This document shows positions 396 to 46,644 of a stretch of DNA of 64,000 nt, in pieces. Below the pieces are notes generated by a model. That model did no database searches. It saw only the letters and a list, made by a program, of their open reading frames with translations, and was not told the origin of the DNA. Source of the stretch: Hydractinia symbiolongicarpus (lineage: Eukaryota > Cnidaria > Hydrozoa > Anthoathecata > Hydractiniidae). Both the position numbers and the translations under genes were made by a program. Where the stretch lies: contig NC_079875.1 of NCBI RefSeq assembly GCF_029227915.1, forward strand, positions 20,143,001-20,207,000, read 5' to 3'. Within the stretch, counting starts at the first letter, position 1, and every line of letters starts with the position of its first letter.

Positions 396-1130
396 ATGCG
401 TAAGAAGGCTGTTGAAAGAAATCATTGGCTGCTTGAGGAAGTGCAGGAAGTTCAAAACGCGGGACATATGTAACAAGGCCGTTAAAAGAAATCCCCCCCC
501 GCTCGAATATGTACGAGATCAATTCAAGACGCAAGACATATGTAACAAGGCCGTTAAAAGAAATCCCGCCACGCTCGAATATTTACCAGATCAATTCAAG
601 ACGCAAGACATATGTAACAAGGCCGTTGATACGTTTTCCCCAATATTCCAATACGTGCCCGACCGGTTCAAGACGCAGGACATGTGTACCAAGGCTGTTG
701 AAAGAAATCCCCGGTTGCTCATGTATGTGCCAGATCGGTTCAAAACGCAAGGCATGTGCAACGAAGTCGTTGAAAATGATCCCGACATGCTCGAATATAT
801 ATCGGATCGTTTCAAAACGTAGGACATGTGCAACAAGGCCGTTGAAAAAGATCCTGAGGTACTCGAATATGTGTAAGGGGGGCGTTATTCTACAATAATA
901 CTATTAATAAATGAGTTTTAAAACGCAAGACATGTGCAATAAGGCCGTTGAAAAATATTTCCATATGCTTGAGCATATACCCGACAGGTTCAAAACGCAG
1001 GATATGTAGAATGGGGTTGTTGGAAGAAGATTCCGGGATGCTCAGCCAGGTGCCGGATCAGTTCAAAACGCAAGATATGTACAATAAGGCTGTTGAAAAA
1101 CATCCCCAGGCACTCCACGGCCATTTAAAT
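396..1130 (+). pseudogene. Decayed tandem-repeat protein gene (24-aa FKTQDMCNKAV repeat)
   Basis: A 72-bp unit encodes a 24-residue repeat of the form VPDRFKTQDMCNKAVEKNP plus LLEY. The motif ttcaaaacgca starts at 451, 523, 595, 667, 739 and 811, exactly 72 bp apart, and again at about 915, 990 and 1062. The frame is not continuous. The first unit (from the ATG at 396) is in another frame than the units from 450. A stop interrupts at about 820, an insertion of about 30 bp separates the next unit, and further stops and a shift fall near 1008-1030. No ATG fits the longest frame. I read it as a broken copy of a repeat-rich protein, perhaps DUF4116-like; that family name is a guess and I do not know the function. 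A minisatellite that happens to be readable is the alternative. Confidence 0.55.
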
Positions 1131-1281
1131 CAGAGGAAACCTAGAAATAAAGTGTGCGCATGCGCCAATTTTTTTAAAATCCCGTACGATAAAATTTGAT
1201 GTCTTGATGACGTCATAGCTATTGACCTAACTGATTTAAATGCAATTTACCAATCTGTAGGAGGGCTAGCGGGATAAATAG

Positions 1282-1298
1282 TATTTTTAACCTTGGTA
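1282..1298. repeat. Target-site duplication, left copy (17 bp)
   Basis: TATTTTTAACCTTGGTA, identical to 5064-5080. The two copies flank the R2-like element. Confidence 0.75.
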
Positions 1299-1572
1299 TA
1301 GTACCAATTAACCGTTAAAGATGGCGGCACGAAAACATAAACAAGAAACCGAAAGTAATTAATTAGTAAACACATCTACGCGAAACTTGTGTTAAGACAC
1401 GAAACGGGTTTCAAAAGATTAACAAATTAATAATCACTTACTTCTTGACATTGTTGACTGCTGTTTAAATTGGAATTCATAATATAATTGACACACGGCT
1501 TACATCCAACACAACGCTGAAAAGACTTTACGCAATTAAAGATTTGTTTTGTTTAAAGATTTGCTTTAAAAG

Positions 1573-1727
1573 GGCACCCTCCTCATCGGGGACCTCTTAG
1601 GTAAGCCAGTAAACTTAAAATTTATTCTTATCTGACAGTTGGTGTTTGCGAGGGTGTTTGGTATCAAATTTAAGATTTAAAGAAGGCGCATTATAAAGGC
1701 ACCCTCCTTATCGGGGTCCTTTGAGGT
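1573..1727 (+). repeat. Twin hairpin motif in the 5' leader of the R2-like element
   Basis: GGCACCCTCCTCATCGGGG at 1573 recurs as GGCACCCTCCTTATCGGGG at 1698, 125 bp apart. Each can fold CCC against GGG and is followed by a second small hairpin (ACCT-CTT-AGGT, then CCT-TTG-AGG). The copies sit in the leader, so promoter repeats or structured RNA are possible. The function is not known. Confidence 0.5.
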
Positions 1728-1785
1728 AGGAGAGAAATTAGTTTTAGTGTATTTGTTTTGCGTCTATCGATTGTACTGAAACAGC

Positions 1786-4700
1786 ATGGATGGAATGATT
1801 AAACGACTATTTTATAATGATCAACCACCACCACAAGACAATGATTCTGAGGAAAGAAAAACAAGTTTGGGTGAAAATTCTATGGTTGAAAAAGGAAATC
1901 AATCTTCTGGAAACACTGCTATACCCAACACAAAATGGTTTGAAAACTACAATTGCACGCATTGTGAGAAGAAATGCAAGAGTTCCTCTGGACTTAAATT
2001 GCATTTAAAAGCCTGTAAACGAAACCTGGTGATAAAAAACCCAGAAAATACAAGGAAAATTAAAGAAGTCATTGCAGGTGTGTCTTTAACGGAAACTTCA
2101 AAAAAGAAAAACATTAAATTGAAGTCAACAACGCAAAGCTCAGGTGTCAAAACTTTGGAAAATCATTACGAAACCACTGTTATAAATAGAAATCAAGCAC
2201 AAATCAAGATTTGGGGTGATCATACGTTAGATGACGTGATACAAATCTTCAATGCCACGTACGACGAAGTTGTGCACTGGAGAAGAAACTTGTTTTCACT
2301 ACCAACAGGTGCAGCAGAGAAGAGATATATTACTGAAACAATAAGACTCATAGAGATCTGGAACCAACAAGTAGATTTATTAAAGGGGATTTCTATCAAA
2401 GCAGTTATGACGATGCCGATGCTTCTACTACAAAAACCATCATATAAGTCCAAAGCGAAGGATCACTCTGAATGTCTTAACCGTAGATTAAATCTCTGGG
2501 TGGAAGGAAGATTCGATGATTTGATGAGAGAATCGAGGACTATACAATCTAAAATCCCAAAACCAAATTCCCTGAATACTCCAGAGCAGTGCGCTAAAAA
2601 TTTCGCAAAACTAATGCTTCAAGGAAAGATACATGCTGCACTAAGATTATTGGATGATAAGATGTCTGGTGGAGTACTGGATCTAACTGATGAGACACTC
2701 CAAGAACTGAGGTTGAAACATCCAAATCCTGTTGACGCTGATGAATCTGTGCTTCTCAAAGGGGAAATCCCATTTATCGATCCTGCTATTTACAACAACA
2801 TAGATGAAACAACAATATTGAAAGCCGCACTTCGTACAAAAGGTTAAGCAGGACCGTCAGGAATGAATTCAGATGGCTGGAGACGTATATTAGTGTCAAA
2901 GAATTTTGGAAAGATCGGCGTGGAATTGAGATCATCTTTGGCTCGGTTTGCGAAAAATCTTTGTACAACTGCATTTGATCACACAGAAGGCAATTCACTG
3001 GAAGCATACATCGCTTGTAGGTTAATACCACTAGATAAGAAACCTGGTGTGCGGCCTATTGGTGTGGGGGAGGTTCTTCGAAGGGTGATTGGAAAGTCCA
3101 TAATATCAGTAATCAAACCGGAAATACTTGAAAGCGCTGGTTCTCTCCAATTATGTGCTGGTCTACCTTCTGGATGTGAGGCAGCTGCTCACGCCATGAC
3201 AACAATTTTTGAAGAAGAAGGAACAGACGCATTACTTTTAGTAGATGCTACGAATGCTTTTAACTCACTTAATCGGAAAGTGCTACTTCATAATATCCGA
3301 TACATATGTCCAGCTATGTCTACGTATATACAAAATTGTTATAGCTCACCATCGAGGCTGTTTGTTATGGGTGGGAAAGAAATATTATCGGCAGAAGGAA
3401 CAACTCAAGGTGACCCGTTCGCTATGCCAGCTTATGCAGTTGGAATTGTTCCTCTTCTCCCGCTGTTGAAGAATGACGTGGAAGATAGAAAGTTGAACAT
3501 AACTCACTGCGCTTATGCTGATGATCTGGGAGGTGCCGGAAAAATATTTGAATTAAAAAAATGGTGGGATAAAGTTGAGCATTATGGTCCATTATTCGGC
3601 TATTATCCTAAAGCATCAAAATCATGGTTAATAGTAAAGGATGAACATAAATTAGTAGCTGATGATGTCTTCAGTGACACGGAGATAAACATCACTACAG
3701 TTGGAAATAAATATCTTGGCAGCTTTATAGGTACACAAGATGAGAAAGAAAAGTACATCATTGGGTTGGTAAATGAATGGATTGTTCAGATAAAGAAGTT
3801 AGCTAAAATTGCACTTTTTCAACCACACGCTGCCTATGCTGCTTACATAAGTGGATTTCAACACAAATTTAACTATTTTATCCGGACACTTGGGGATATG
3901 AGCAAGTATATCAAAGTACTGGACGATGTTATCGACAATACATTGATCCCAGCATTGACAGAGGGACATAAATGTACCGAAAACGAGAGAATATTACTGA
4001 GTTTACCAATTCGCTATGGTGGTATGGGAATTGTGATATTAGTCGAATCATCAAAGAGAGAACATGAAAATTCTGTTGAAATGACAAAACAACTAGCAGA
4101 AAGAATTAAACTACAGCAAACGTCTTATAAATTTGACAAACAGTTACACAATAATATCAAAAGCAAAATCCTTAAACAGAAACAAATGTTGCATAACGAA
4201 AAGCTGAAAGAAATTCGCCAAAGCATGACGAATGAGCAATTACGAGCAAATGATTTGGCGACAATGAAAGGTGCTTCAAGTTGGTTGTCAGCACTCCCAA
4301 TAAAATCTGAGGATTATGCACTCAACAAAAGAGAGTTTTATGATGTCATACGAATGAGATATCGGTGGGATTTGAAGTTCCTACCAACAATTTGTGTCTG
4401 TGGAAAACGCTTCACGATTGACCATGCTATGTCATGTGTCAAGTGTGGCTATATTCATCAACGTCACGACGAATTAAGAGATACTTTGGCAAAAATATCT
4501 GAAGAGATTTCCAATGATGTAGAAACAGAACCGCATTTACAACAGCTGACTGGAGAAAAATTAAGCAATTCTGCAAACTCCACAGATGAAGCTAGACTCG
4601 ACATTAGCGTTAGAGGATTCTGGCAACGAGGTCAACGAGCATTTTTTGACGTAAGGGTATTTAACCCATTCGCTTTGACATACCTCAATCAGAAACTGCC

Positions 4701-4927
4701 TAATGCATTCATCTCCATTTATCTCCACTCTGTCGCATAAAGTAGCGGAAAAAAGAAATCTAGAACAAAGTACCGTTACAAACTGGCTTCGGACGAAATT
4801 ATCATTTTGTTTACTGCGTTCAGCAATACTCTGTATTCGAGGAACAAGAAATACAAAACGAAGGTTGATAAAAGTAGATGTTAATTGTCTCGAGATATCA
4901 AATGCAACGAGCCAACTTGTCAACTGA
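1786..4927 (+). pseudogene. Reverse transcriptase / restriction-like endonuclease of the R2-like element (interrupted)
   Basis: The frame opens at ATG 1786 and is broken by one TAA at 2845-2847. Reading resumes in the same frame (AGPSGMNSDGW...) to 4740. An N-terminal CCHC finger has C57, C60, H73 and C77. The RT domain shows motif A (LLLVDATNAFNS, about 3235-3270) and motif C (AYADDLGG, about 3511-3534). Toward the C-terminus a CxCG...HxxSCxxCG zinc motif lies at about 4396-4450, followed by LDISVRGFW and FFDVRVFNP, which fit the restriction-like nuclease. Near 4715 a deletion and frameshift move the conserved tail (NWLRTKLSF, LLRSAILCIRG) into the frame ending at 4927. In these elements the nuclease nicks the target and the RT primes from it. 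This copy looks inactive but young. Confidence 0.75.
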
Positions 4928-5063
4928 GAGATTTTATACTACGCACAATCGCCTGTACTATATCAGTCTGAGAAACGGAGAACTTTGTGTTGCTGTTTAG
5001 CTAGCTATTTTCTTGTCACTTGTAAAGTTCATAATTATTTAATATAAGATATTGATTTTTCTT

Positions 5064-5080
5064 TATTTTTAACCTTGGTA
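5064..5080. repeat. Target-site duplication, right copy (17 bp)
   Basis: Exact repeat of 1282-1298; it marks the 3' end of the R2-like element. Confidence 0.75.
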
Positions 5081-5372
5081 AGAGTGACCACACCGTCCAA
5101 AATGTCAATCATTTCAGCCGGATTCGCGCCCAAACAAAACACAAAAAACTTGAAAGCTAGCTAGCCTTATAGCAAATATTGCTCATTTTTGTCATATATT
5201 TGCGCTAATTCTACCCAAAAGAACGGTGTAAAATTTATCCTGAAAGTTAAAGGAACTATTCAATGATCTAATTCCAGTTGCAGTTATCTGCTGTACTTTT
5301 TTTATACGTGGTGATACAAGATTTTGCAACCACAACTTTTAGTTGAAATTTCACTTTCGTTTTGTCACAAAG

Positions 5373-8300
5373 ATGGCTGACCCAGAGAGTCAACACAATA
5401 TATATTTAACAAAACTGTGTCGAATTTGTCAGGAGCATACTGGTAAGGTCCTAAGAAATGCCTTATCCGTCACAAAATTTTCTGAAAGAATTGAAAAAGC
5501 CTTTAGAATAGACCTAAAAGGGGATATTCCAACAGTACACCCTAGAAAAATTTGTTTAAAATGCTACTCTTTAATGAAAAATGTGGAAACCAAAAATACA
5601 ACACCCATATTAAATGTGAAATCATGGTTTCCACATAATCCAAGTGACTGTGACACTTGCAAATTGGGGTCTATTAAATCAAGAGGTGGAAAAAAAACCA
5701 AATCTAAAAGTGTGGGAAGACCACCGAAAGATGGTAGTATGTGGACACGACACATGACTGAGGTGTTATACGAAAAGACTCCGGCAGATATCATACCAAA
5801 GAGATACAGCAGAGAGGATTTCTCTTGTAATAAGTCACTGCCAGAATTTATATGCTTTTTGTGCAAGGATATTCTTAGAAGACCTGTAGGGATAATGCCT
5901 TGTGAGCACAACTTCTGCTTAGAATGTTTGGTACCCAATATTGAAGGTAGGAGAGAAACGGACTGGAAATGCCCTCAATGCAAACTGCTTATAAAAAGCA
6001 ACCAAATTAATCCATCAAAAAAGATACAAAATCTCACAAAAATGTTATCGACCAAATGTAAAAGATGTGGTCATTTATTTAATTTGGACGAAGAAAAAGA
6101 AAAAAAAACAGCATGAGGCATCGTGCATCAGTCAATCTCCAACAATCAATGATGCAAAATCTGATGAAGCAGTTTTGCAAATCATCAGGAAAAAAATGGC
6201 CGAATCAAAACTTCCAAATAAAAGCATTGTATTCAAAACAGCTGGTAGAGTAAGTACACATTTTTTTAAGAAACTGGTTTTGTAAGGCAGGCTCAATGTT
6301 TCTTAAAAAATCAACCATTTGAGCCTGGAATGTTTCTTAAAAACCCACATAATATAAACTATACATATACATAACATATTTCAAATTAAACTCGAACACT
6401 GTTTATTCGGCAACAGGCAAACACAGGTGTTGACAGAAAAGGTCTATTCATTATATTCTCCATTCACATACGACATATCGTTTCTCTGGAAACTAGTTAT
6501 GCTTTCTGGTGTTTCAAAAATGACGTTTGTGTGAAAAAATTTTCTGGGTGGTATATAATGAAAGCTTGAATTATTTTCAGCCATTGGTTATGACTTCAAC
6601 ACCAACACCTACAAAAGAAAGTGATATTGCAAGTACAAAGACTATTCAAAACAGAACCAAATTTTTAAAAAATCAATTAATTGCAACATCTGGAAAAACT
6701 AAAAATGCAATTATTAAACAAACTGGAAAAGTTGTTAAGTCATTTTCTTCCAACGACAGACAATCTATCTTGAGCAACGCAAACATTCCTCAAGCAAAAA
6801 TTGATGCTGAATCATTAGTGGCTATGAAAGTTGATATGGGTATACCTTGGGAGAAATTGAAGACAATGGGCAGGTGAGTATACCTCAAAACTTTTATTAT
6901 GACCCCCTAATGTGATTTATTTTAAATTCTTCTAAACAAAAATATTTTAATCTTACAGATGGCTGAAAACATTTGACATACAGCCTGCATCACATAACAA
7001 GCAAAGACAAGTTGCAAAAGCGTGGTGTGGTGAGGATGTTATAGTTAAAGATGCACCATTTACATTCCCAGTTAAGGATATGAAGGGGGTTTTTACAATC
7101 CAAACAGCTCCATGGGCCTATATCAATGAATTACCACAACACATTGTTAATCATTTAGACTCATTGGCAGAGTAAGTTTGTATTTCAAATTATATAAACA
7201 AGGATTACAGTTGTACCTGCAGATGGTGAATATCTTCTTTTCTTTATAGAAGCAATCTCATGGTTGACCATTCATTCTTGAATAATGAGATCCAAATAAA
7301 GTTAGGAGGAGACCATGGCGGCAAATCTTTTAAGATGAATTACCAGCTGTGTAATTCATCAAAGCCTAATAATAAAGATAATACAGTGGTTTTCAGCATA
7401 TTTGAGGCCAAAGATTATAGATCTAACTTGATGGTTGGTTTGTCCAGATTCACCAAACAAATAGACCAGTTAGAACAAATGAAATGGAGGTAATAGCAAA
7501 CACATTGTCATAGTCCATAAACTAATCACGTCTGCAAAGCTCAAATATTTGACTATAATGGTTGTAATTACTAGGAAGCTCATTTTCCAAAACTAGTCAT
7601 AGTAGCAATACAGTAGTGAATAGATTTACAGTTAGATTTAATTATTCTTATAGAGGAAGATGCATTAGAGTATTTATGTGTGGAGATTATGAGTTCTTGT
7701 GCGTAGCATATGGGATAACTGTGCTAATGGTATGCTTAGCTATCTTACTTTTTCAGGCTGAAACTTAGAAAGTGAAAATAATGACTTGAAGTTAAACAAA
7801 TTTAGTTAGAGAGTTTATATTCCAAGTTAAACTTTATAATAATTCCAAATGTCTGTTCACTAAATATATATAATATATATTTCTTCAGGGAGGCATAACT
7901 GTTTATTTTGCCACATTACAAAAAAAGAAATGCAGAAGCCCAAAGCTGAAAGAGAAGCAGTTACCCAGCGAACTTTAAAATCTTTGACAGATGACTTACT
8001 GGCATTTCGCCAGTCAGGAGGTGACATCAAAAATGCCAAACACTTTAACAATGTAATTCATGAACGGTTATTCAACATTCCAATTGACCAGGTATATATT
8101 CAATCTGATGTTTTCAGAATTCCAATTAATGTGAATTTGGAAGTGAAATAAGACAATTCTTCAGTGGAATTAATTTTATAGTTATTTCCTAAATAATTTT
8201 TAATAACCGTATTTTTAGGTTGCATTGCCTGCACTACACATCTCCTTAGGAACCTTCCTTAAAATATTTAATATGCTTGAAACTGCTTGCTCAGATTTGG

Positions 8301-9701
8301 ACATCAAATTGACAGCAAATGGCCAAAGTTTGGATCCTGATGCATTAACTTTTATTGAGAGATGCCAGAAATTGAAAGATTGTAAGTGGGTTATAAAAGA
8401 CTGCGAGGAAAAGATTGAACTCGTTAATCAGGCATTGGCTGTTGAAATTTTTCAAAATCCCGAAAATGCAAATGAACTCCGGAACATATATGAGCCTAGA
8501 ATAGTATTCTTAAGTAACAAGTTAAAAGAAAAGGTATATACATAATATCTCCACTTTTTTGTTCATAAGTCTGTCAATTTTAAAAAATTAACATAAATAA
8601 AAATGAAAAAACTGATTACACAGCCAATTATTAAATGGTAATTTACTAGTTAATCTATGTCAAAATCAAAAAAATATCATGTTAAGACCTGTTGTAACAT
8701 ATTTGTGCTAAAATTTTTATCATAGTCTAACGAGGCTGAAAAAATTCAAAACGAGTCAGGAACAGAGCGATGGGATGGTCCTTGTACAAGGAAACTTGAT
8801 GAAACTTTAAAACTGTTGAATGTTGAACGACAAGCGTACCACGGGCGGAGTTTTGTTGGCAACCATGTGCATAAAATGCTCAAGGTGATTTGCAATTTAT
8901 ATATAATAATTATAGTAGTAAATCCAGAGTAATATCAACCACCTTCCTATATAATTATGCTTTTTTTTGCTTGGTTGTTGCTTAGGCCATGCTAGAAACA
9001 AAATAATTATCCCACCCAAGGTTACACAATATGTGTATTTAATTTTCAGGATGATAACATCATGAAACTTTGTAAGTCGATACCTGAGTTGATATGTCAC
9101 ATGGGATATAGAGGTACAGATGTTCATAAAGAAGCCATTGGAATCTGTGTTAAGTTCAAGAAACTTTTCTGGTACTATGCACAATGTCATGCGTTAATGA
9201 ACAGTAGAGAGAAATTTGACGAGAAAATGTTGAATGATTTAGGTACCTTTTTATGAATAACTTTTCCATGTTATGCCAAAAAAAACTACAATCAAAATTC
9301 ATAAAAGAGAGCTTTATTGCTGTGTGTCATGCATATGTGCTTGAATGTTGCTACAGAGTAATTTGCAGCCTATTTATTTTATAGAAACTGCAATTGAAAA
9401 CTTCATGAACTTTTACCGAAAAACTTGGCCAGATGCGTCGATTACGCCAAAGTTACACATGCTGGAAAATCATGCGATTGATTTTGTCAGAAGATGGGGT
9501 ACAGCATTTGGTTTTTATGGAGAGCAGGGTGCAGAGAGCATTCATCCAACATTCAACAAGTTGATGGCTACTTATTGTCAAATGAAGCCTCCCACAAAGC
9601 GATTGCAAGCAATGATGAACGAACACCTGACACGTGTCCACCCCAGGTCGCAAGTGCTTCGCCCCTCAATTAGGAAAAGAACACATGAGGAACGACACTA
9701 A
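5373..9701 (+). CDS. RAG1-like recombinase/transposase, nine exons, about 935 aa
   Basis: Exons by GT-AG signals and matching phase: 5373-6249, 6581-6873, 6959-7171, 7250-7489, 7893-8091, 8219-8533, 8726-8884, 9050-9242, 9385-9701. The start is the ATG in MADPESQ; an in-frame ATG at 5343 is the alternative. The N-terminal part shows C16/C19, then FRIDLKGDIPTVHP, then C61/C64 and WFPHNPSDCDTC, the order and wording of the vertebrate RAG1 N-terminal zinc region. A RING follows (C161, C164, C177, H179, C182, C185, C200, C203). The core has GGDHGG (D near 483), KPN...FEAKDYRSN (D near 518), a CxxC (NCLFC) and GEQGAES (E near 876 or 880), which fit the D-D-E order of RAG1/Transib-type RNase H folds; that match is inference. 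The only break is a frameshift at the A9 run 6100-6108. No RAG2-like Kelch ORF lies nearby. It could be a domesticated gene or a RAG-family transposon. Confidence 0.75.
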
Positions 9702-9712
9702 AATGACACTTA

Positions 9713-10099
9713 GGCCACCATCAAAATATGTTATGTTTGTGTCCTTAAGTTCCTGCAAAAATGAGAAAATGAGTAGGTCGGATTTTTCCTAGGGATTTTC
9801 AGATAGGAGCAATTAAATTTGTTCCCTGGACTAAAAAACAGTATAGCGCTACTCAACATTGTTTGCAGACCCTTTATACCACATAAGCCAACTGATGGCT
9901 TGTTCTCTTTTTTTTAATTTCCAATCAATTATAAAGCACATCAATTAAATATAATTGGATAGATAAAAAGATATCACGGCATCCAAAGGAAAGGAAAAAA
10001 AATTCCCGTTTTTTTTTTCTTTGACTTGTCGACTCGAGTTTTTATCACCGCAAGCAAGTCAGTCGGAGGACGCAAACATAACATATTTTAATGGCAGCC
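9713..10099. mobile_element. MITE, 387 bp, TTA target duplication
   Basis: The ends GGCCACCATCAAAATATG and GGCTGCCATTAAAATATG (right end read in reverse complement) continue with TTATGTTTGTGTCC / TTATGTTTGCGTCC. TTA stands at 9710-9712 and 10100-10102. TTA duplications with GG-starting ends suit the PIF/Harbinger (Tourist) class. It begins 11 bp after the RAG1-like stop codon. An extended version of the right end recurs at 28397. Confidence 0.65.
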
Positions 10100-10102
10100 T
10101 TA

Positions 10103-10456
10103 CTGTACTGTGCGTGGCTACCATGTTATGTTTCTAGGATGTATTTCTAAAATTTATTATAATGGAATTAGATGATAGCAAATATGGCTACTTCGGGTAT
10201 TTTAAAATTTTTTGGCTACCTTGGAGCTATAATGGTGCTCACAAAAATAACTACAGCAACATCACTCCAATCAAAATAAGTTCTCCAAACAATACTCTAT
10301 CAAAAAAAATTTACCTGATATTCCTAGTTTGGGTAGAACTTGAAATATCGTGTTCGATTTCCTTGCAACCACATTTCCAAGACGAATCCAGGTTGTCTTT
10401 TTCAGCCATGTGTCACCGCAGCTTATCGCCAAAGGAACTTGCTATTTTGGACTTTC
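10103..10456. other. Intergenic, nothing recognised
   Basis: No coding or structural signal stands out between the MITE and the transposon end. Open frames run into the adjacent AT repeat array and look accidental. Confidence 0.4.
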
Positions 10457-10458
10457 TA

Positions 10459-10735
10459 TGGTTGTTTATATGTAGCAAAATTAAAATATATATGCAACAA
10501 ATATATATATGTGCAACAAAAATATATATGTGCAACAATGTACATATTTATATGCAACAAAAATATATATGTGCAACAAAACACATATATATGCAACAAA
10601 AGCATATATATATATATATATATATATATGGAACAAAAACATATTTATAGGAAACAAAGACAAAAAATATATATGCAACAAAAAATACATATATGCTACA
10701 AAAATACATATATGCTACAAAAATAATATGCGCAA
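10459..10735 (+). repeat. Left subterminal array of ATATATATGCAACAAAA
   Basis: About ten imperfect copies of atatatatg(tg)caacaaaa, with a pure AT run near 10604-10628. The mirror array is at 15770-15980, which suggests transposase binding repeats. ORFs through it are artefacts of the repeat. Confidence 0.7.
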
Positions 10736-10857
10736 CAAAAAAGCATGTGTTCAGAGCAAGCCCAAATATCAGTCTGGTCTGTCTTTTGTGCCGTGACAAT
10801 CCGCAATAACAAAGTGGATCTATCTTTGCATTTAGTTTTTGAAAAGTTTATTTCGGG

Positions 10858-13402
10858 ATGGCTGGTGATGAAGGAGAACTGAGAAAGATAATCAGAGAGG
10901 AAATTGAAAATAGCAACAGAACAAATAACACTCCACGTCATATATATCGTAGAACTCAAGGACTTATTAATGATGCAGTACACAGTTGCGCTCGTGATTT
11001 CAGAAGTAGTTTTTCACCCAGCACTTCATCGGCAACAACAAGCTCCAGCTCACCATCTGCTACTACTGCTGTGTATTTACCTGGAACTTTTAAGAAAAAG
11101 CAAAAATTTTCACCAGGACACCCATACCGCCTTACAGCTGTTCAATCCAAAAAAAAAAGTGATGTTACTAAGCCATTGAAATCTGTTGAAGTTTGGCTTC
11201 TTGATGTCCATGGATTTGAGGATTCAAATCCAGTGGAGGAAAGACCTTCCTTTGGTGAAGGCGGTTTCTCCGAAATTAATTTTAGCGAAGAAATGGTAAT
11301 TTTAAAGGGAACTGTTCAGTTAAATCCTCTTGAAACTTTTGAGACGGCTATCAGACAATCTTTGTGTGAAGTATTTAGTCGCAAGTTTACGCTCATCTCA
11401 CCAAGTGATTTTTTTTACGTTAAAAGAGAAAGAAATAAGCTAGTTTGCTTAGAAACAGGACCTGGTCACTCTTGGGGTTTCCAAAATTTAAGAAGATTAT
11501 GGGGACAAGGAAAACTATATTGTGTGTTAAAAGGACATTATAGAGACCTTGTAATTGGAGACAATGACACAAAAGAAAAAGAAATTGTTAAGATAGAGGA
11601 GGAGGAATGTGATAAAAAGAACGATGACTTGCAAAAACCTTGCTGCTCCCGTACAGGTACATATATAGATATATTTATATATATTCATATATTTAAATTT
11701 ATAATATAGCATTTTTAGAAAATCATTATCTCTCCCGTAAAAGTCTATACAGTCCTTGACTACAGGTCTGACATTGGTCTTTTTGAACGTAAACACAACA
11801 TGGTGCTGTTAGTAGGATGTGACATAAACAAACATATGGAATTTCACTCCAACTTAGGATTTTACTTCAATTCTGACAAAGTGAAAGTTGTGAAACTTCC
11901 ATGCAAAAGCCATTTTTTAGTTATTATTTTATTTTAATTTCTAGAACTGCCCTCAGCGACATCCGAAGCTACATCAAGTTTGGTTTCTGATGCAGAACAA
12001 CTAGTGAATGAATTGCTGGAAGCTGATGATAGAAAGAAAATTGTACCAAAGTTTGAATCTCTGGATGAAGTTGTTGATTATTTTGATAAAAAAATGACAG
12101 GAGATAAGGAACGGTTACGTTTAAAAGCAGAAAATGCATTGGAAGAGGCATTGTGTTATTACAAGTCTGGCAACTTTGATGCTGCATCTAAAATTGTAAT
12201 AACATACAAAGGCCAACCAGCTGTGGACACTGGTGGTATTTTACGCCAGTTCTATACCGATGTCTTTGCTCAAATGGTTACTGGAATGGAAGATATTCCA
12301 CCATTATTTGAAGGAAATGACAGAAGAAAACTTCCAATTTACAGTGCTGCTGCAGTGCTATCAGGGCTGTATGAAATTGTGGGCAAGATCATGGCTCATG
12401 CTCTGTGCTTGTGTGGATCAGGTTTTGGATATTGTTCACCGGCTGTGTACAAATTTATTGTTACTGGAGATATATCAGAGGTGACAAACAGTATCTCACC
12501 AGAGGATGTGTTTAATCTTTACATTAAAGACTATATTAAGAAAGTATGTTTCTTGATTATTTCTGTAAATTCAGCAGGAAGGTAACTATTTCGCAAAAAT
12601 TTCTTCCTGCAGGTTCCACTTTATTTATATTTTGTTTGTAGTAGTATCAAGTAATGTGTAATTGTATGGAGTTATTATTTTTTAGATATCTGCTTGTAAG
12701 GATGATGAAGAGCTGAAACAGATATACCATGAAGATAATTTTCAACAGCTTTTGTCTGATTCGGGCTGCACAAAGCTACTAAAGGTATAGTATGCTTTAC
12801 ATATCCGCACAAATTTATCCCGTCTACACCCTGCCAATACTTCTAGTTTTATTTGCTTAAGAAATTGTGCTTTCTCATTTATACCTAGTGTCTATACATT
12901 ATTTTTATAGATGGAAAACCGCGCTGCAGTCATGCAGGACGTAATTTTTAATGAAGTAGTTGGGAAAAGATTACCAGTTCTTCAACAAATCAGAAAAGGA
13001 TTGGCTATACTTGGTGTATTGGACGTTATTATCGAAAATCCTAAATTGTTTGAACCACTATTTGTCTATGATCCCAGTCACCTAAATTTTGATAAAATAA
13101 AAGCAAAATTGGACTTTTGCACTAAAGAATACTCGGAAACTTCAAAGTCATGGTTATTATGTTATCTTAAGGATGCTGATGCTGAAAAATTTGAAAACTT
13201 TCTGCTTTATTGTACTGGTAGTATGATTCTACCTATGTCTACAATTAAGGTGAAGTTTGGTAAATGTAATCAAATATTTGCTTCTACATGTCTTTTGGAA
13301 TTGGTAATACCAGAAAATTTTAGTGATAAAAAGCAACTTTATTTGTATATGGATACCGTTTTAAAGGACATTCGCACTGCCAAAGCATTTTCCACAGTTT
13401 GA
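10858..13402 (+). CDS. HECT-type E3 ubiquitin ligase carried by the transposon, 662 aa
   Basis: Four exons with matching phases: 10858-11656, 11945-12543, 12686-12784, 12911-13402. The open frame is intact from ATG to TGA. The N-terminal third is serine-rich (about residues 50-75), then a globular part without a name (VEVWLLDVHGF...). The C-terminal half is a HECT domain: the N-lobe has YKGQPAVDTGGILRQFY, matching the conserved F-GE-GVD-GG-RE pattern, and the C-lobe has FASTCLLELVIP with the likely thioester Cys626. HECT ligases accept ubiquitin on this Cys and pass it to a substrate; the substrate here is unknown. It converges on the transposase gene and lies inside the same inverted repeats, so it is probably element cargo. 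It is intact, which suggests recent activity. Confidence 0.8.
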
Positions 13403-13989
13403 GAGGACAATTTTTTTGTTTATAACCTTTTGTTCATTTTTAAGATGTATATATATGAGATTTTTTTAAACTGTATATTTTGTTGAGTCATATTCTTTAA
13501 CATGTGCCTCATGTTTTGTTCAATCATTCTTGGCAGAATTGATATTAGTCAGTAGGGTTTTGTTAATTAAGTTTTAAAATTTTCGTTTCTTTTTTCTTAT
13601 TCGGCCTACACCTTTTTGTCCTAGCTGTTTCTCCAATGATATTTTAAGGCCCAATTTATGTTTACTTTGTATAACAGAAAAGACATCTTTACAAAAAAAT
13701 TGTTTTCAAATTTTTGCGAAACTATTTTTACGGATTTGGGCCAATCTAATTTTTTACTGACAAAAGTTTCAAAGAATTCGCAGATTTCATTTTATATTTT
13801 TTTTAAGACGAAGATAACTTTAATGATGTTACATTTGAAGCTAAACGATAATATAAACAATATACGACAAATTCACGTTGACGTTTCTTTGGTTTAAGGG
13901 TAGTCCAGGGTGGCACACCTTTTTAAGCAATTCGGTTTCGGGCTCAGGTAGAAATTGCTTGCGCAATTTTTTTTGAAAAAAAAATAAAT
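13403..13989. other. Spacer between the convergent genes
   Basis: AT-rich 3' flanks of both genes. I see no further exon; open frames such as 13658-13897 are low-complexity Phe/Lys/Asn strings. Confidence 0.45.
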
Positions 13990-15739
13990 TTAACACTGCC
14001 AAGTCCCTGGATTAGTATCAACTGAAAATAATGCTAAAGCTTCCAGGTAAATGTCTATCCCATAACATGTTGAATCCCGCAAAGGGTCAATCGAGTTCAA
14101 TGTTTGTAAAATATTTTCAGCTATTTCAAAATTTACATCGTCAACTTCTACTGTCGATAAGCCATCATCATTCGGAGTTGGACCAGCCCAGTCCATACCA
14201 TACCATTCAAGGTCCTCTAATGTACCATCAGTATCAAACAGTTCTGCCACTTGATGTTGACTTCTATTTCTTCTGTCAATCATACCATTGTTCCAGATTC
14301 TATTGGGTGACCAATTGCGTTCTGTTCTGAGGGGATGATTATTCCAGCCGGCAGTAAAAGAAGTGATAACTCTGTTTATTCTTGGTAGAAACACGTAATG
14401 TAAAATAAAAACATGCAGATCGGTGTCCATATTAAGTATACCTGTAAAAAATGTACAAATTTTCAGCGGTAATGTCTTTACGTTTAAAATATGTTTAAAA
14501 ATCTTAAAAGTCGTTCCAAGGGGTTGCTAAGTAAGTTGCTTAATTTTTGGCATGGTTTAAGCTATAAGTCGGTTATAACCGTACCTTACTAAAATGCACA
14601 ATAAGTGAATCGGTATTAAACAAACCTTGTGTCTCCATGGCTTGAAAAGTGTAGTAAAACTGTGCACAAACATATGTCCATACATCCCGCCAAAGACGTT
14701 CTATCCTCTGGTTATGGACCGACGATCCAGCTAAATAACTTCCTCTACCATCACCCCTAAGCTCAACCATCCTTTGCCAGACTAGGGCGTTTTCACCACC
14801 TTCATCTGATCGAACGCGTGAAGGGATACCCCATTGATTTACTGCCATATCATATAATTTTAGTACAGTATCTTTTTTGTTATTTGTACTGCACCACAAA
14901 TACACAACAACACGCGAATATCCATCCATTCCGCCGTGAATTACAAATTTCCAGTTAATAAGACTGTGATGACCGTCGATGTGCCAAAGGCTGTTGGGGC
15001 CAGGGACGCTATACTTTCTTCGTCGAATTAAAGAATTCCAACGTATTCTCGAAGTTTCAGGATCAATTTTTCTTAAAGTTTCAATTACTCTTTTATGCTG
15101 TACACGTAAACCAAGAGATCGTAAATGCCCAAGGACCAAGGATCTTCCAACAAAAGAACTGTGACTATCTTTAAAGTCTTTAACAGTCTGCTCAAGTGCC
15201 TCATCAGATATGGAAGAGTAGCCAGTAATTTCTGAAATACCGAGTTCCCTAATTCTTCTACCCACAGTCCATCTTGAGACACATAGCATTGATGAAATTT
15301 CCTTCCAGCAATAACCCAGATCACGAAAGTAAAGTAATACATCCTCCGATATATCCCACTTGGGTCTACCAGGTCCATTCCTGTAAAGTTTATTTGGGGT
15401 ATAATCAATAATAGCCACTCTATCAGATATAAAACCTACAGATTCTCGTTGTACTTCCTGAAGAATCACGAGTAAATTCTCGACGAGTGAATTAATTATA
15501 GTTTTTGAATCAAAAGACAATATTTGGTCTTGACAAGACAAATTTGAAAGTGTGTTGAGAGAAATTCCAATTTTGTCCAATATATCATTTAGCTGTTTTT
15601 TGTCCAAATTATCCCTTTGCTCGGCTCTTTCTACTAGTCTGTTCAATTCTTGAAAAAACGCATGCAGATGACCGAACTCCATCTTTGTTTTTATATTGAG
15701 GATAGGAGCGTAAAGTATATCGAATATGTTTTTAAACAA
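13990..15739 (-). CDS. DDE integrase-type (rve) transposase, two exons, about 533 aa
   Basis: Exon 1 is 15739-14590 and exon 2 is 14441-13990, joined in phase 1 at a GTAAGG donor and an ACAG acceptor. An ATG at 15682 is an alternative start. Residues 125-170 form a helix-turn-helix type DNA-binding region (GRPKWDISEDVLLYF...VSRWTVGRRI). The RNase H core has all three acidic residues: D255 (LWHIDGHH), D312 (VRSDEGGEN) and E347 (SVHNQRIERLW). The C-terminal part (LHVFILHYVFLPRINR, WNNHPLRTERNWSP) is typical of this cnidarian/fish integrase family. It should cut and join the element ends at 10457 and 15990. The frame is intact. Confidence 0.8.
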
Positions 15740-15769
15740 AACCCGGACCAGATATGTTTTAAGTAAAAA

Positions 15770-15980
15770 CCTTGCATATAAAAAACCTTGAATATATATT
15801 TTTGGATGCGAAGTATATATTTTTGTTGCATATATATATTACCGATTTTCTTGCATATATATATTTTTGTTGCATATATCTTTATTGTCCATATATATTA
15901 CCGATTTTCTTGCATATATATATTTTTTCTTGCATATATATATTTTTGTTGTACATATATATTTAATTTTGCTACAAATA
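15770..15980 (-). repeat. Right subterminal array, inverted relative to the left one
   Basis: Copies of ttgcatatatatattttt(gttg), the reverse complement of the 10459-10735 array, just inside the right terminal repeat. Two variant units with ttaccgattttcttgcatat occur near 15838 and 15899. Confidence 0.7.
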
Positions 15981-15990
15981 AACAACCATA

Positions 15991-37699: not shown

Positions 37700-38770
37700 G
37701 CTTCAGAACCATAGCAATTAATGAACTGATAACAACAGCAAATTTCGAAGACTTACAAAAAGTCCGTTTATTATCCCTTGAGGGTGAATTCAATGATGGG
37801 GAACAATTAGTAACTGTAGTCAGAGAAAATATATGGGATGAAATGTTGACATTTTTTCCAGTGACCGTTTTAACATAAAAAAAAGGTTTTAATCGAATTC
37901 AAGGATGAGGAAGCTCAGGGTGATGGTGTTGCAAGGGACGCTTTCACATTATTTTTTAATAAAATGTATGGAAAATTTGATGGCTACTTTGAGAAAGTAC
38001 CAATACCCACTTCAGAAGCGATGGAGTTAAATACAGTGGGAAAAATTATTATCTCTGGCTTTGTATTTTATAATGTATATCCTTTTCAATTATCACATGC
38101 TGCCATGAAGTATACATTGTTTGAAGAAATAACTGATCAAGATTTGTTCAAATCGTTTATGAATTATATTCCATCATCAGAAGCCGAGTATGTAAAAAAG
38201 TTTGCAGCTGGGAAAAAAAGTGAAATCCAACCCATAGTAGACATATTGACTGAATCTCGTATTTTTGATATGCCAAAGAAAGAAAATGTGATCGAATTAT
38301 TTGTTAAAGCTGCAAAAATTTCACTTATAAGGTTACCAACCTTTTGTTTGAAGGAAATTGTTATAGGAATGGGACATTTTTGGAAAAACGTCAGCCAAAA
38401 TATGTTCGATGCTATAGCTGCTGAAACAAAGCCCACACCCGAACGATTTTTAAAAGCTATCGAAGCCGATGAAAAAAATCAAGTTCACCAGAAAATTACA
38501 ACTTGGTTTCATCGTTATGTACGTTCATTGAAACAGGAAACTTTGTTGGATCTTGTCAGATTTATAACTGGATCATCGAACCTTATACCTGGTGAAATCA
38601 TTAAATTAGAGTACACTGATCACCCACCGAAACATGCAAGACCAACAGCTGAGACATGTTTTAAAATTTTGAGGCTGCCGCGCCAATATGTTTCCTTTTC
38701 TCACCTTTGTGAAAACATCAATTATTATCTCGGTAATGAAGACTCATGGGGTGTTAAGGACAATATTTAA
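37700..38770 (+). pseudogene. HECT-domain exon of the second HECT gene (frameshifted)
   Basis: A splice-acceptor-like CTTCAG at about 37711 opens a frame reading ELITTANFEDLQKV...RENIWDEML. It shifts at the A8 run 37877-37884 into KVLIEFKDEEAQGDGVARDAF, the start of a HECT N-lobe. From there the frame is open to TAA at 38768-38770. The C-lobe has RPTAETCFKILRLPRQYVSF, with the catalytic Cys in the usual T-C context. The C-terminus NINYYLGNEDSWGVKDNI is like other HECT tails. It is distinct from the HECT gene at 10858. With the exons at 30761-32450 it may make one gene. The A-run frameshift may be an assembly error rather than true decay. Confidence 0.6.
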
Positions 38771-41786: not shown

Positions 41787-42650
41787 GGAAACGATGCCCG
41801 CGATAGTCAAGCCCTGCTCCTTGAACAAGATCTTGAGTTTTTCGAGCAGTGATGTGTCATCCCCAGCGATCTTCATCAGAGTCTCTTTGATAATCTTTAG
41901 TTGGCTCTGGCTCTCGGAGGAAAATACACCGTGTTGCTCTCGTAAGGCTTTCTTCTCATCCCGTACTTTCTGTTCCAAATGTCTATTTGTTCCTTGGTTG
42001 CTCCAGGGTTGGCCTTCTTTTTGTCCTCGAGACTTTTGATCTGCTCATCTCTGACAAGTATCTTGCTTTCCAACATCCTCAGCTGGCCATCCCTTGGTCG
42101 ACTCCCCTCCTCCAAACGAAGTATCTTCCATCAAGCTCTCCGTATCGTCGAGTACTTTCCCGAGCAGCGGTTCCATTGCGATGTCGTCAGCCTTTCCACA
42201 ACGCGATTGGTATCGCCCATAAGTTTCTGGGCCTCTGCCTTACTGCCCTTGTGTGGTGTAGTATAGTTGATAAACCCCATGTCTCGCAAACGATTCGTCC
42301 CCAACCTCCTCTGTATCTCGGCAACACTCCTGAGCTCACCATTCCTTTTCGTGAGCTCTACACCATCGTAAAGAAGCCGGTGCCCTCTCGACTCAAGCTC
42401 GTCGTAGTGTCTAGCGCTAGGCTCCCCCAGCTCATCACCAAGAGCTTCGTAAAGGCTATCAACCTTCGACCTCAATAGTTCCCCACTTGCCGTGAGAGCT
42501 ATCTTCCCCGTCGTGGTGTCTCGTGAAGGTGTTGGGGGGTGGTGGTGGACCCAGGAATATCCTCGGTCTACTGAAAGATCCCTCCTCTCCCCCACGGTCA
42601 AGGTCTTCCTCCGCCGTGAAATCGTCATTGAATCCTGGATTATCTGTCAT
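41787..42650 (-). pseudogene. Polinton coiled-coil hypothetical protein, broken into three frames
   Basis: The N-terminus (MTDNPGFNDDFTAEEDLDRGG, start 42650) is in one frame. The middle (GELLRSKVDSLYEALGDELGE...LRSVAEIQRRLGTNRLRDMGF) is in a second. The C-terminal coiled coil (about 42110-41790, ending KILFKEQGLTIAGIVSA) covers two more short frames. Similar proteins are standard in cnidarian Polintons next to the capsid gene; their role is unknown and a minor virion component is one idea. The last residues run into the LINE fragment. Confidence 0.6.
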
Positions 42651-42681
42651 TTATTCCACTCTCATAGTGCTACCAATAAAC
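42651..42681. promoter_or_regulatory. Bidirectional start region between divergent Polinton genes
   Basis: Only 31 bp separate the ATG at 42650 (minus) from the ATG at 42682 (plus). Both sides carry the gene-start word: AATAAATG on the minus strand and AATAAACATG on the plus strand. Confidence 0.55.
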
Positions 42682-43837
42682 ATGTACGGAACCAAACTTG
42701 ATCAGCATAAGGTAATAAAGACAATGCTGGCTATGAAAGGCAAGAAACAGCGTGTCAAAGTCTCCCATGTCCCCAGCACAATTAATCAAAACGAAAACTT
42801 GTACGTCGTCGTTCCCAACATGGGACAGAATGATGTAATTTTTCCAGGCTCTCTCAAACTCCTCTTTGACCTCGAACATACTGGCACCAATACGAAACGC
42901 ACCATTGTCAGCAACATTGGCAAAGCCCTGGTACAGAATCTTTGGATAAGCCTGAACGGTCACGAGGTACAAAACATCAGCGATTTCGATATCCTCGCAG
43001 TATATAAGGACCTGTGGCTGCCAAAGTTTGACCGAGAGAACAACCTAATTCTAGAAGGCATCAATCCCAATGACGGTACCATCAGAGCCCTGCAAGTGAA
43101 GGCCAGCGAACATGTAGGAAATGATGAAGAAAAAGCGATCGTGACAGCGTTTGGCAATACTTTTGCTATCCTTTTGCTATTCGGGGTGTACCGCAGCTAA
43201 ACCAGCTGATGGCGCTTATTAAATTACCAATATTTGCTTAGAGTTTGATAAAGTGACAAACGAGGGTCTCGCGAGTGCTATGATGTCACGATACTCGAGG
43301 CTCGCCCTGCCCTATGAGCGTGTACTCCGCAGCAAGGTTATAACGATGAAGAAAGCTGATACCTCCTACAACTTGCAAATCGACACCCCAGCGAAGTCTC
43401 TGAAGGGTGTGTTGTTGTTGTTTGAAGACCCGGGGAAAGTGAAAGCTTATGCTGGCGCTAGCGAGGTCTTCTACAACTCCAAGATCGAGAAAATCGCGAT
43501 CACGGTGGAAGGTGAGTCTAACAAACTATATTCGCACGCGATGTTGCCGAAAGATCATCTCGAACAAGTCTTTGAACTTTTCGGGGATGTGAATAGCAAA
43601 ATGACCATTGGGCAGTTCTTCAGTGAAAGATACGCGCTGTTCATTGACTTCCGCAGTAGTCCAGATCACAGTCTCCATGGTAGCGGGAGACCTCTGCAAA
43701 GGCTTAGTGATGGCATCACTCTCCAGATGATCAAGAAAGCAGTCAGAAGTACCGGGGATATCAAGTGCTACGTGTACTTGCTCCAAGTTGCGCAGCTGAA
43801 TGTTCTCGACGGGTGTTTCCACAGTGTGAAATACTAA
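42682..43837 (+). pseudogene. Polinton major capsid protein (double jelly-roll type), disrupted
   Basis: The N-terminal part runs from ATG 42682 to about 43170. A deletion of about 119 bp and a frame change follow, then an in-frame TAA at about 43227, then the C-terminal part in the frame ending at TAA 43837. Recognisable pieces are KLLFDLEHTG in the first half, LKGVLLLFEDP in the middle and ALFIDFRSS and LHGSGR near the end, as in capsid proteins of animal Polintons. A capsid role is known for the family and inferred here. The missing middle segment survives in the inverted copy at 43963-44500. This copy cannot make a capsid protein. Confidence 0.65.
43096..43514 (+). repeat. Inverted duplication inside the capsid gene, arm 1
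   Basis: Matches the reverse complement of 43963-44500 almost perfectly, except that arm 1 lacks about 119 bp. The arms are 448 bp apart. Confidence 0.8.
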
Positions 43838-43848
43838 AATAAACATAC

Positions 43849-43962
43849 ATGGCAACTATTGGTGTACTCGTAGCGGGCGCTGCTATCAACGCGCTCGCGT
43901 TTAGCGGTTCAAATTTCCTCTTCAGTAAACTCGGTGGGCATGGTGAAGAGGAGCGTGAAAGG
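43849..43962 (+). pseudogene. 5' fragment of a small Polinton gene
   Basis: ATG 43849 (MATIGVLVAGAAINALAFSG...) lies 12 bp after the capsid stop and behind an AATAAACAT word. The hydrophobic N-terminus resembles a small Polinton membrane protein. The frame is cut after about 38 codons by the inverted duplication. Confidence 0.5.
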
Positions 43963-44500
43963 CACCTTTCACCGTGATCGCGATTTTCTCGATCTTGGAG
44001 TTGTAGAAGACCTCGCTAGCGCCAGCATAAGCTTTCACTTTCCCCGGGTCTTCAAACAACAACAACACACCCTTCAGAGACTTCGCTGGGGTGTCGATTT
44101 GCAAGTTGTAGGAGGTATCAGCTTTCTTCATCGTTATAACCTTGCTGCGGAGTACACGCTCATAGGGCAGGGCGAGCCTCGAGTATCGTGACATCATAGC
44201 ACTCGCGAGACCCTCGTTTGTTACTTTATCAAACTCTAAGCAAATATTGGTAATTTAATAAGCGCCATCAGCTGGTTTAGCTGCGGTACACCCCGAAGCA
44301 CCCGTAGCAGCATCTTTGATGACTTGGTCATAGGGTGCGAAGTGCAGTACGAACTTCAGTCTGTCGTGTAAGCCTGCTTGATAGAAGGGCAGATCCCTCG
44401 TGAGTTCAAAAAATTTGCCGATAGGGATAGCAAAAGTATTGCCAAACGCTGTCACGATCGCTTTTTCTTCATCATTTCCTACATGTTCGCTGGCCTTCAC
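43963..44500 (-). pseudogene. Inverted second copy of the middle of the capsid gene, arm 2
   Basis: On the minus strand this carries the capsid middle region without the deletion of arm 1 (GKFFELTRDLPFYQAGLHD...). It keeps the same in-frame TAA (about 44254), so the stop is older than the duplication. Both ends stop abruptly at unrelated reading frames. It is a rearrangement product, not a second gene. Confidence 0.7.
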
Positions 44501-44509
44501 GCTGGCTTG

Positions 44510-44666
44510 GTGGAGCAAAAAGACGTATAGACTCGACCGTATTGTGACAGGTACACGTCTCCTGTACTACTTGGCTGATGGGCCTGATCGAAGCTTTGTC
44601 TCGGAGGAGTTGATGCTAATACCAGAGGATGTTAAAATACCTCCGGAGCATGTAAAAGAGTGGTAA
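44510..44666 (+). pseudogene. C-terminal fragment, possibly Polinton integrase tail
   Basis: From the inversion breakpoint a plus frame reads KKTYRLDRIVTG...LLYYLADGP...EELMLIPEDV and stops at 44666. It looks like the end of a protein (small beta-rich tail), perhaps that of an integrase. I cannot prove this. Confidence 0.3.
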
Positions 44667-45069
44667 ATTTCTCGTCTTTTTTATGTGTTATCAACACATC
44701 AAAAAGTATGCTACCAAGGGGGCCCATAGCATGGCCCCCCTTGAACCCCACTATTTCGGACCTGGTCAGTTGTGTCGCCTTAGGTTTTCTTGATCTGACG
44801 GTAATTTCGAGGGCCCCGTCTAATGTAACGAAGGCATCATGTGGATTTTTATCCACTCCATGCATACCTGCTGGGAATGCGTTAGACGCATTCCCTGTGA
44901 TATCACGGCGAGGTGTGGTTTTCACGTCTCTGTATGTTGCGCTTATATCAACAATCCCCAAAAACCTTCCAAGGTCAGCACGTTTAAACATAGGCTGACT
45001 CTTGTTGTTTACCAGGGTCTCGATTGCTCCATTAGGTACAGCATTAAACAGAGTAATTTGCGAAGACAT
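44632..45069 (-). CDS. BRO-N/MSV199-like Polinton protein, probably truncated, 145 aa
   Basis: The N-terminal 90 residues (ITLFNAVPNGAIETLVNN, FKRADLGRFLGI, LDGALEITVRSRKPKA) fit the BRO-N type DNA-binding region of viruses and Polintons. After KPKATQL the sequence changes character and ends at 44632 without the usual long C-terminal part, so a deletion or fusion is likely. The gene-start word is weak here (AAAAATG). In-family role: probably nucleic-acid binding. Confidence 0.5.
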   Translation of the reverse strand: MSSQITLFNAVPNGAIETLVNNKSQPMFKRADLGRFLGIVDISATYRDVKTTPRRDITGNASNAFPAGMHGVDKNPHDAFVTLDGALEITVRSRKPKATQLTRSEIVGFKGGHAMGPLGSILFDVLITHKKDEKFTTLLHAPEVF

Positions 45070-45176
45070 TTTTGACCTGTAATGCCTAGGCTTCCCTTAA
45101 AAGCGGCAGTCGGACAGCTCTATGTTTTTGTGGCTCGATCGAGCAACAAAACTTCTAGCGCAGTAACACCCGGGTC

Positions 45177-45365
45177 TTAATATTTTATCATATAGTAGAT
45201 TAAGGCAAAAGCCAACGACGAGCCACAGGCAATTAAAGTGATCCGGTTGTCGCGTTTCTCCCTCTCCTCATAGATATAGAGATCTACTTCCAAGTCCTCG
45301 ATTGTTTGCTCCAATTTCTGGATCTCCTTCCCAAGCTTTTTCTTTAATTTTTCGACGCAAGACAT
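45177..45365 (-). CDS. Small coiled-coil membrane protein of the Polinton, 62 aa
   Basis: Residues 4-38 are a charged coiled coil (KKKLGKEIQKLEQTIEDLE). Residues 43-58 are a membrane segment (LIACGSSLAFALIYYMI). The ATG sits in AATAAATATG. It lies 17 bp upstream of the ATPase stop side, in the same direction. Function unknown. Confidence 0.55.
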   Translation of the reverse strand: MSCVEKLKKKLGKEIQKLEQTIEDLEVDLYIYEEREKRDNRITLIACGSSLAFALIYYMIKY

Positions 45366-45382
45366 ATTTATTTAGTTAAAAG

Positions 45383-45982
45383 TCAAGGCAAAATGCTCCA
45401 ATTTCTGGGGTGCTCCAGCCCCACATACAGGCAGGAGTGTTTGGACTTGCTCAGCCCGGCTTTAATCGGACTCCAATCGTAGATTATATTCGTTTCCTTA
45501 TCCACCAGCTTCATATCTGACCTCTCGTGGGGATACCACATAAACAACTGTTTTTTCTGCCTTCCAAGGTTCTTTGGTAGAGGTATGTAGGACTGAGTTA
45601 ACAACCAGAGGCTGTGCTTCTTATGCCTATCTGAAATAGCGAGCTCGAGTAGGGGTTGTCGACGCTTGTCGAGACTCTCGTCAGCGATCATATCGTCAAC
45701 GATAAACAGAGTGTCCTCCCCCGCTAGCTGCTTCGAGAATTGCTCGATCCTATCAAACAACTGGTCTTTGGGATCTATAAGGAACACGTAGTTATCTTGC
45801 CACAGTGAGGACCTTTCCAAGTAGGCCTTGCTACAGCGGATGGTGGGACACAGGATCACGATGTTGTGAAAGTGTCGCTTATATTCATTCTCCAGTAGGT
45901 CGAGTACACGCTGAGTCTTCCCACACGAGGTAGGCCCCGTGAAGATTGCCGTATGTGGGTCTTTCACGATGTCTAGATTCAT
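45383..45982 (-). CDS. Polinton DNA-packaging ATPase (A32/FtsK-HerA type), 199 aa
   Basis: Walker A GPTSCGKT is at residues 16-23 and Walker B TLFIVDDM at about 91-98. LWLLTQSY downstream fits the sensor motif of the family. The length is near the 200-250 residues usual for Polinton packaging ATPases. The frame is intact, with ATG in AATAAATG. In viruses of this lineage the ATPase pumps DNA into the capsid; here the capsid gene is broken, so no packaging is expected. It is the best preserved gene of the element. Confidence 0.85.
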   Translation of the reverse strand: MNLDIVKDPHTAIFTGPTSCGKTQRVLDLLENEYKRHFHNIVILCPTIRCSKAYLERSSLWQDNYVFLIDPKDQLFDRIEQFSKQLAGEDTLFIVDDMIADESLDKRRQPLLELAISDRHKKHSLWLLTQSYIPLPKNLGRQKKQLFMWYPHERSDMKLVDKETNIIYDWSPIKAGLSKSKHSCLYVGLEHPRNWSILP

Positions 45983-46023
45983 TTATTCTGTCTGCCATAG
46001 GCAGATAGAACCTTGTGGGGTAC

Positions 46024-46266
46024 TTACTTAGGAGGCATCATGGGACGCTTATACCAACCTTGTTTTATCGCGTTATCATCGAATAATATCGCTCCTGTCA
46101 TATATCCAGCGAGCTTTAACCCGTCCTCCATGTCCATCTTGGCCCCCGGTCTAGAAACTCCCAGCGCCTTTTTCGCACCCAGTCCCAAGATGGTAGTATA
46201 CGATACTAGTCTGACAGATTCCCACAAGGAATCGACGACTTCTTTCTGATACTCCTTGCTGCTCAT
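46024..46266 (-). CDS. Small Polinton protein with hydrophobic segments, 80 aa
   Basis: Hydrophobic runs VSYTTILGLGAKKAL and LAGYMTGAILF, and a KRPMMPPK C-terminus. The ATG is in TATAAATG. It is intact and in line with its neighbours. I know no function; similar short proteins are common in animal Polintons. Confidence 0.5.
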   Translation of the reverse strand: MSSKEYQKEVVDSLWESVRLVSYTTILGLGAKKALGVSRPGAKMDMEDGLKLAGYMTGAILFDDNAIKQGWYKRPMMPPK

Positions 46267-46277
46267 TTATATTATGA

Positions 46278-46644
46278 TTATTTCATCTTGAAAAAGTCGA
46301 TATCGGGCTGGGCTGTGGGCTTTAAAGGCTGTCGCTGCTCTGGTGCACGTGTTTCGGCAGGCTGTTGACCCGCTGCGGGCTGCTTACGCGTAAGGTAGTA
46401 GACTCCAGCAACTGCTATGCAAGCAAGTACAACGCCTCTGGCACTATAGACTGTGACCACCTGACTGTACAGAACTCGCTCCTGAAGAGGTTTTAACTGT
46501 AGATTCTACCGCACCTTCTTGTTGCTTTAGTTTCTCCTTCCTCTTCTTCATCAGTGCAGCCAACTTGTGACCCTGTGCGACTCTCCCTGGATGCTTTACT
46601 GGCTTTGTTATGACTCTTTCTTCTTGAATTTGAACTTCACTCAT
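46278..46644 (-). pseudogene. Polinton membrane-anchored protein with frameshift
   Basis: The N-terminal part from 46644 (HPGRVAQGHKLAALMKKRKEK...EGAVESTVKT) ends out of frame near 46444. The membrane segment and tail (VVLACIAVAGVYYLTRKQ, PEQRQPLKP) continue in the next frame to 46278. The second frame has no ATG, so I read one gene with a frameshift at about 46455. The start is in AATAAATG. Confidence 0.5.

Follow-up and report, generated by a model that had tools for sequence, protein, structure and literature searches.

A gene of the hydrozoan Hydractinia symbiolongicarpus joins an N-terminus resembling that of RAG1, the vertebrate antibody-gene recombinase, to a RING domain and a catalytic core with the predicted fold of RAG1. 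The gene occupies positions 5373 to 9701 on the forward strand of a 64,000-nucleotide window (C1:20143001-20207000; positions below refer to this window unless a contig is named) of a 480.9-Mb genome in 76 contigs. It almost certainly belongs to a defunct copy of an autonomous DNA transposon of the Chapaev type (CMC group), whose single gene, in ten exons, encodes the transposase. A first-pass annotation of the window had taken it for a near-complete RAG1 gene; it is instead a Chapaev transposon, of a kind already described (PMC4411706; here and below, papers are cited for the passages concerned only).

A single gene and its decay

The gene consists of ten exons, where nine had been proposed, separated by nine introns that are all GT-AG, and it encodes a transposase of about 960 amino acids. 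There is good evidence for this model, because a second genomic copy, L009, when spliced in the same way, is open through 959 of 962 codons across the ten exons. The window copy can no longer make protein: its frame is broken twice, its 3' end is missing from the window, and an insertion resembling a long interspersed nuclear element (LINE) entered it later. Neither frame break (exons 1 and 5) occurs in L009 or in a third copy, L010. After splicing, the window copy contains 34 internal stops and L010 contains four; the junction of exons 5 and 6 in the window copy is off by one. The description of an almost intact gene with matching phases throughout therefore has to be given up.

We read the N-terminus and the core as one gene because 70 of the 77 genomic matches to the core domain DUF1280 (PF06918; cutoff, 25 bits) have a match to the N-terminal query upstream, on the same strand and within 8 kb. 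All matches entered this comparison: the 77, and at least 130 for the N-terminal query, a lower bound with 150 of 179 candidates scored and broken copies counted as several pieces. Conversely, DUF1280 lies downstream of 73 of these N-terminal matches, and of 43 of 52 when the match is at least 600 nucleotides long; there were no cases of DUF1280 on the wrong side or strand. Both domains also occur in one protein in the relatives P0001, P0005, P0008, P0010, and P0012. The first-pass annotation had likewise placed the two parts in a single gene, and this view holds. Two genes, with an N-terminal element like N-RAG-TP upstream of an unrelated Chapaev core, are extremely improbable. N-RAG-TP has been described as a RAG1 N-terminal-like sequence only (PMC8355894), and 57 of 130 listed N-terminal matches, many of them short fragments, have no downstream DUF1280. 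Against separate genes stand the one frame that runs through both parts of L009, the two-domain relatives, and the genome-wide pairing, on which we rejected them.

Two groups of matches, of 20 and 18, each share a single score, as recent families would. One member of the group of 18, L029 (C1:8353500-8358500), was scanned and matched only RAG1_imp_bd in Pfam, with no RING. The family formed by L029 and the 17 equal-scoring places is apparently recent, and given the scan of L029, RING-bearing and RING-less Chapaev families probably coexist in the genome. At another locus, L028 (C14:18470527-18471150), a single-exon frame of at least 953 amino acids combines DUF1280 (E = 1.4e-13) with a coiled coil and a PHD finger below the cutoff (E = 1.8e-4); GGDKGG replaces GGDHGG, and RAG1_imp_bd is absent among the best 25 of 41 Pfam matches. 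L028 is possibly a domesticated or divergent Chapaev.

Element ends and target duplications

Running from 1116 to 10456 (Table 1), the element reaches beyond the coordinates first proposed. Full termini, CACGGCCAT...ATGGCCGTG, were found in L009, L010, and L011, and the window copy has a matching 5' end; the final 211 bp of the Chapaev element matched 21 places in the genome, none of them inside the window. The ends thus read 5'-CAC...GTG-3', which together with short target duplications is a stated hallmark of Chapaev (PMC4079192). Between CACGGCCAT and ATGGCCGTG, L009 measures 5773 bp and L010 measures 5754 bp, and they are flanked by 4-bp duplications of GGTA and GATG, respectively. L011 is internally deleted (3261 bp) and flanked by ACGG, while L017 (GCTG) and L018 (TTTC) show that a second family also makes 4-bp duplications. 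In a sixth copy, L030 (692 bp), the two flanks differ. Duplications were therefore 4 bp long in five of the six copies with both ends read (L034 and L012 to L016, with unresolved ends, fall outside this tally), within the 3 to 4 bp expected of Chapaev and different from the 5 bp of Transib and RAG-like (RAGL) elements.

The insertion that splits the window copy carries a reverse transcriptase domain (RVT_1, E = 8.4e-8), and its reverse transcriptase frame has one in-frame stop, ending at 2847. The target duplication on its two sides is 17 bp long (TATTTTTAACCTTGGTA, 1282-1298 and 5064-5080). Besides the exons of the gene itself, the open reading frames of at least 80 amino acids in 5064-10456 are two in antisense (136 and 98 amino acids) and AT-rich frames near the end; no RAG2-like frame was seen among them.

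Table 1. Features of the Chapaev copy and its immediate surroundings (TIR, terminal inverted repeat; UTR, untranslated region; NBD, nonamer-binding domain; DDBD, dimerization and DNA-binding domain)
Feature	Position	Strand	Description	Basis
Chapaev 5' end	1116..1281	+	TIR CACGGCCAT..., then 5' UTR	98.8% identical over 167 bp to L009 5' end
Foreign LINE-like insertion	1282..5063	+	Reverse transcriptase frame 1780-4740; splits Chapaev copy	
Chapaev body	5064..10456	+		98.9% identical to L009, 98.4% to L010
Exon 1	5373..6249	+	RAG1-like N-terminal zinc (Chapa) region and RING; frame broken here	PF12560, PF00097
Exon 2	6581..6873	+	Position where RAG1 has NBD/DDBD (relation to NBD not established)	
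Exon 3	6959..7171	+	GT-AG, fitting phase	
Exon 4	7250..7489	+	Proposed first catalytic Asp (GGDHGG), part of DUF1280	End of beta-1 in P0001 model; motif
Exon 5	7654..7729	+	Proposed second catalytic Asp (GDYEF); frame broken here	End of beta-4 in P0001 model
Exon 6	7889..8091	+	C(2)C motif CLFC	
Exon 7	8219..8533	+	Helical insertion region	
Exon 8	8726..8884	+		Splice model
Exon 9	9050..9242	+		Splice model
Exon 10	9385..9701	+	H(4)H motif HMLENH, proposed catalytic Glu motif GEQGAE, stop	
Adjoining other element	10457..15990 (ends approximate)	.	TIR TATGGTTGTTTAT...; integrase on - strand	

The N-terminal region

Exon 1 matches the Pfam families RAG1_imp_bd (PF12560, E = 6.5e-11) and zf-C3HC4, a RING (PF00097, E = 9.2e-7), and the gene thus has the N-terminal zinc region and RING expected of RAG1 and RAG1-like (RAG1L) proteins. 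Among PDB sequences, exon 1 matched the N-terminal domain of RAG1 (21wb, E = 2.4e-8) and full RAG1 (9jpu, E = 9.7e-8, residues 31-231), behind a top match to the RING of TRIM31 (E = 8.6e-9). The RAG1-like N-terminus of the first-pass annotation is thereby confirmed, and every string it quoted, there and in the core (GGDHGG, FEAKDYRSN, and GEQGAES), is present. By sequence, the first zinc region appears related to that of RAG1; a VIA fold search with the N-terminal model covered only residues 145-245 well.

Further downstream lies the region where RAG1 has its NBD; here the P0001 model has a low predicted local distance difference test score (pLDDT). A whole-protein profile aligned RAG1 150-491, but a profile of this region alone returned no RAG1 up to an E of 10, its four matches all being subunit G of the V-ATPase. 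The region-only profile thus gave homology to the NBD no support. Our literature search found no paper combining Chapaev with the nonamer.

The catalytic core

By sequence, the core is of the DUF1280 type (E = 1.6e-14, 54.5 bits), a family assigned to Chapaev transposases and placed in one clade with RAG1 (PMC3985635). The Pfam RAG1 family, PF12940, was not listed for the window core at E values up to 10, in a scan where HMMER filters remove most matches above 0.1, or for P0005, P0008, P0010, P0012, and P0018 at E values up to 1. Exons 2 to 10 alone had no PDB sequence match, an NCBIfam scan of P0001 and P0008 returned nothing, and in a profile comparison the sole significant RAG1 stretch stopped before the catalytic core.

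The fold gave a different picture. The core predicted for P0001, a relative 40% identical to the window protein, matched RAG1 strongly across residues 459-1007, and so has the core fold expected of RAG1 and RAG1L. The RAG1 core claimed by the first-pass annotation therefore stands as a fold, on this relative, and fails as a significant sequence match. The predicted core was closer to RAG1 than to HzTransib, which size differences may explain. The DDE, C(2)C, and H(3-4)H motifs, as defined for Chapaev in PMC12730594, occur in the window model and in 12 of 19 relatives. That paper mentions Chapaev, Transib, RAG, and structure prediction, and applies AlphaFold to TET/JBP dioxygenases. FEAKDYRSN, put forward as the site of the second catalytic aspartate, is probably wrong; GDYEF is the more likely site in the model, where KDYR falls between beta-3 and the next helix and not at the end of beta-4.

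These features suggest how the element would have moved. The predicted protein would be laid out as a RAG1-like zinc region and RING followed by a DUF1280 core of ribonuclease H (RNase H) fold with DDE, C(2)C, and H(4)H motifs. Transposases would pair the CAC...GTG ends, and the core, by analogy with RAG1 and Transib, would cut them; reinsertion would then yield the 4-bp duplication. As in RAG1, the RING may serve as an E3 ligase or a dimerizer.

Alternative readings

Several observations weigh against our interpretation of the gene as a Chapaev transposase with RAG1-like parts. Neither RAG1 nor Transib is matched significantly by the core sequence, and the core fold was predicted on a relative and not on the window protein. 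The ten-exon model was read from genomic sequence. The TIRs resemble each other only in part and are short, and the 57 unpaired N-terminal matches count here as well.

A true RAG1 or RAG1L gene, a near-complete homologue of RAG1, is very unlikely. The N-terminal sequence, the fold of the relative's core, and the equal domain order would fit it, but the core is DUF1280 and not PF12940, the duplications are 4 bp and not 5 bp, and the element is multicopy and broken. In addition, an exon-by-exon search of the whole genome with PF12940 found nothing over the cutoff and one match at E = 8.1, a result with no positive control (14 control genomes were also empty); we rejected a RAG1 gene proper on this search. 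A host gene domesticated from Chapaev is extremely unlikely, given that nearly identical copies, with TIRs and target duplications of their own, lie elsewhere and that the window copy is frame-broken and split. Its introns would suit such a gene. So would the lower number of substitutions relative to L009 in exonic (18/2889) than in non-exonic (28/2499) sequence (Fisher P = 0.054), which is only suggestive of selection and would be seen in an active transposon too.

Other features of the window

The element adjoining the Chapaev copy is TIR-flanked, with AT-rich subterminal repeats and an rva_4 integrase on the minus strand (E = 4.4e-56). Open reading frames in it look HECT-like by eye only; a Pfam scan of one of them, 11938-12582, gave no match. 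An open reading frame at 37874-38767 has a HECT ubiquitin-transferase domain (E = 5.2e-10). At 42100-49000, relics that by eye resemble a Polinton or adintovirus include a Pox_A32-type ATPase (45386-45982, E = 5.1e-6), and the translation of one of their frames recurs inverted at about 43223-43837 and 43922-44254.

Bearing on RAG1 and comparison with known systems

Two origins are debated for the N-terminal half of RAG1: fusion with an N-RAG-TP-like element (PMC8355894), and an ancestral fusion, which Kapitonov and Koonin inferred from domain order (PMC4411706). Together with the pairing across the genome, the predicted fold strengthens the published case for an early joining of N-terminus and core, and the fold extends that inference over RAG1 459-1007. 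A quite possible, still tentative reading is that Chapaev transposases keep the whole ancestral layout of RAG1: zinc region, RING, DNA-binding and dimerization domain, and RNase H core with ZnC2/ZnH2. On this reading, the front half of RAG1 would be ancestral, with no late graft from an N-RAG-TP-like element, and Transib would be a reduced lineage. The many Chapaev copies here, in which an N-terminus with or without RING is joined to a core of predicted RAG1 fold, provide material for testing, structurally and biochemically, how RAG1 was assembled.

The architecture that drew the first-pass annotation to this gene is already published. Chapaev carries a "Chapa" domain that is part of the RAG1 N-terminus, and two subgroups add a RING (Kapitonov and Koonin 2015, PMC4411706); Chapaev with both was reported by Kapitonov and Jurka in 2007, as cited there. 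The element resembles known Chapaev in its Chapa/RAG1-like N-terminus, RING, DUF1280-type core, CAC...GTG termini, and 4-bp duplications. It differs as a family found in this genome with ten exons, which, as no comparison with Repbase consensus sequences was made, may already be named there. Unlike vertebrate RAG1, it is mobile and multicopy, makes 4-bp duplications, and has a core outside the Pfam RAG1 family. It differs from Transib, known from the HzTransib structures, which has no N-terminal half (PMC7204232) and makes 5-bp duplications (PMC8355894). With N-RAG-TP of Aplysia it shares a RAG1-like N-terminal region in a mobile element; N-RAG-TP has the N-terminal part only (PMC8355894), whereas here that part is joined to a transposase core.
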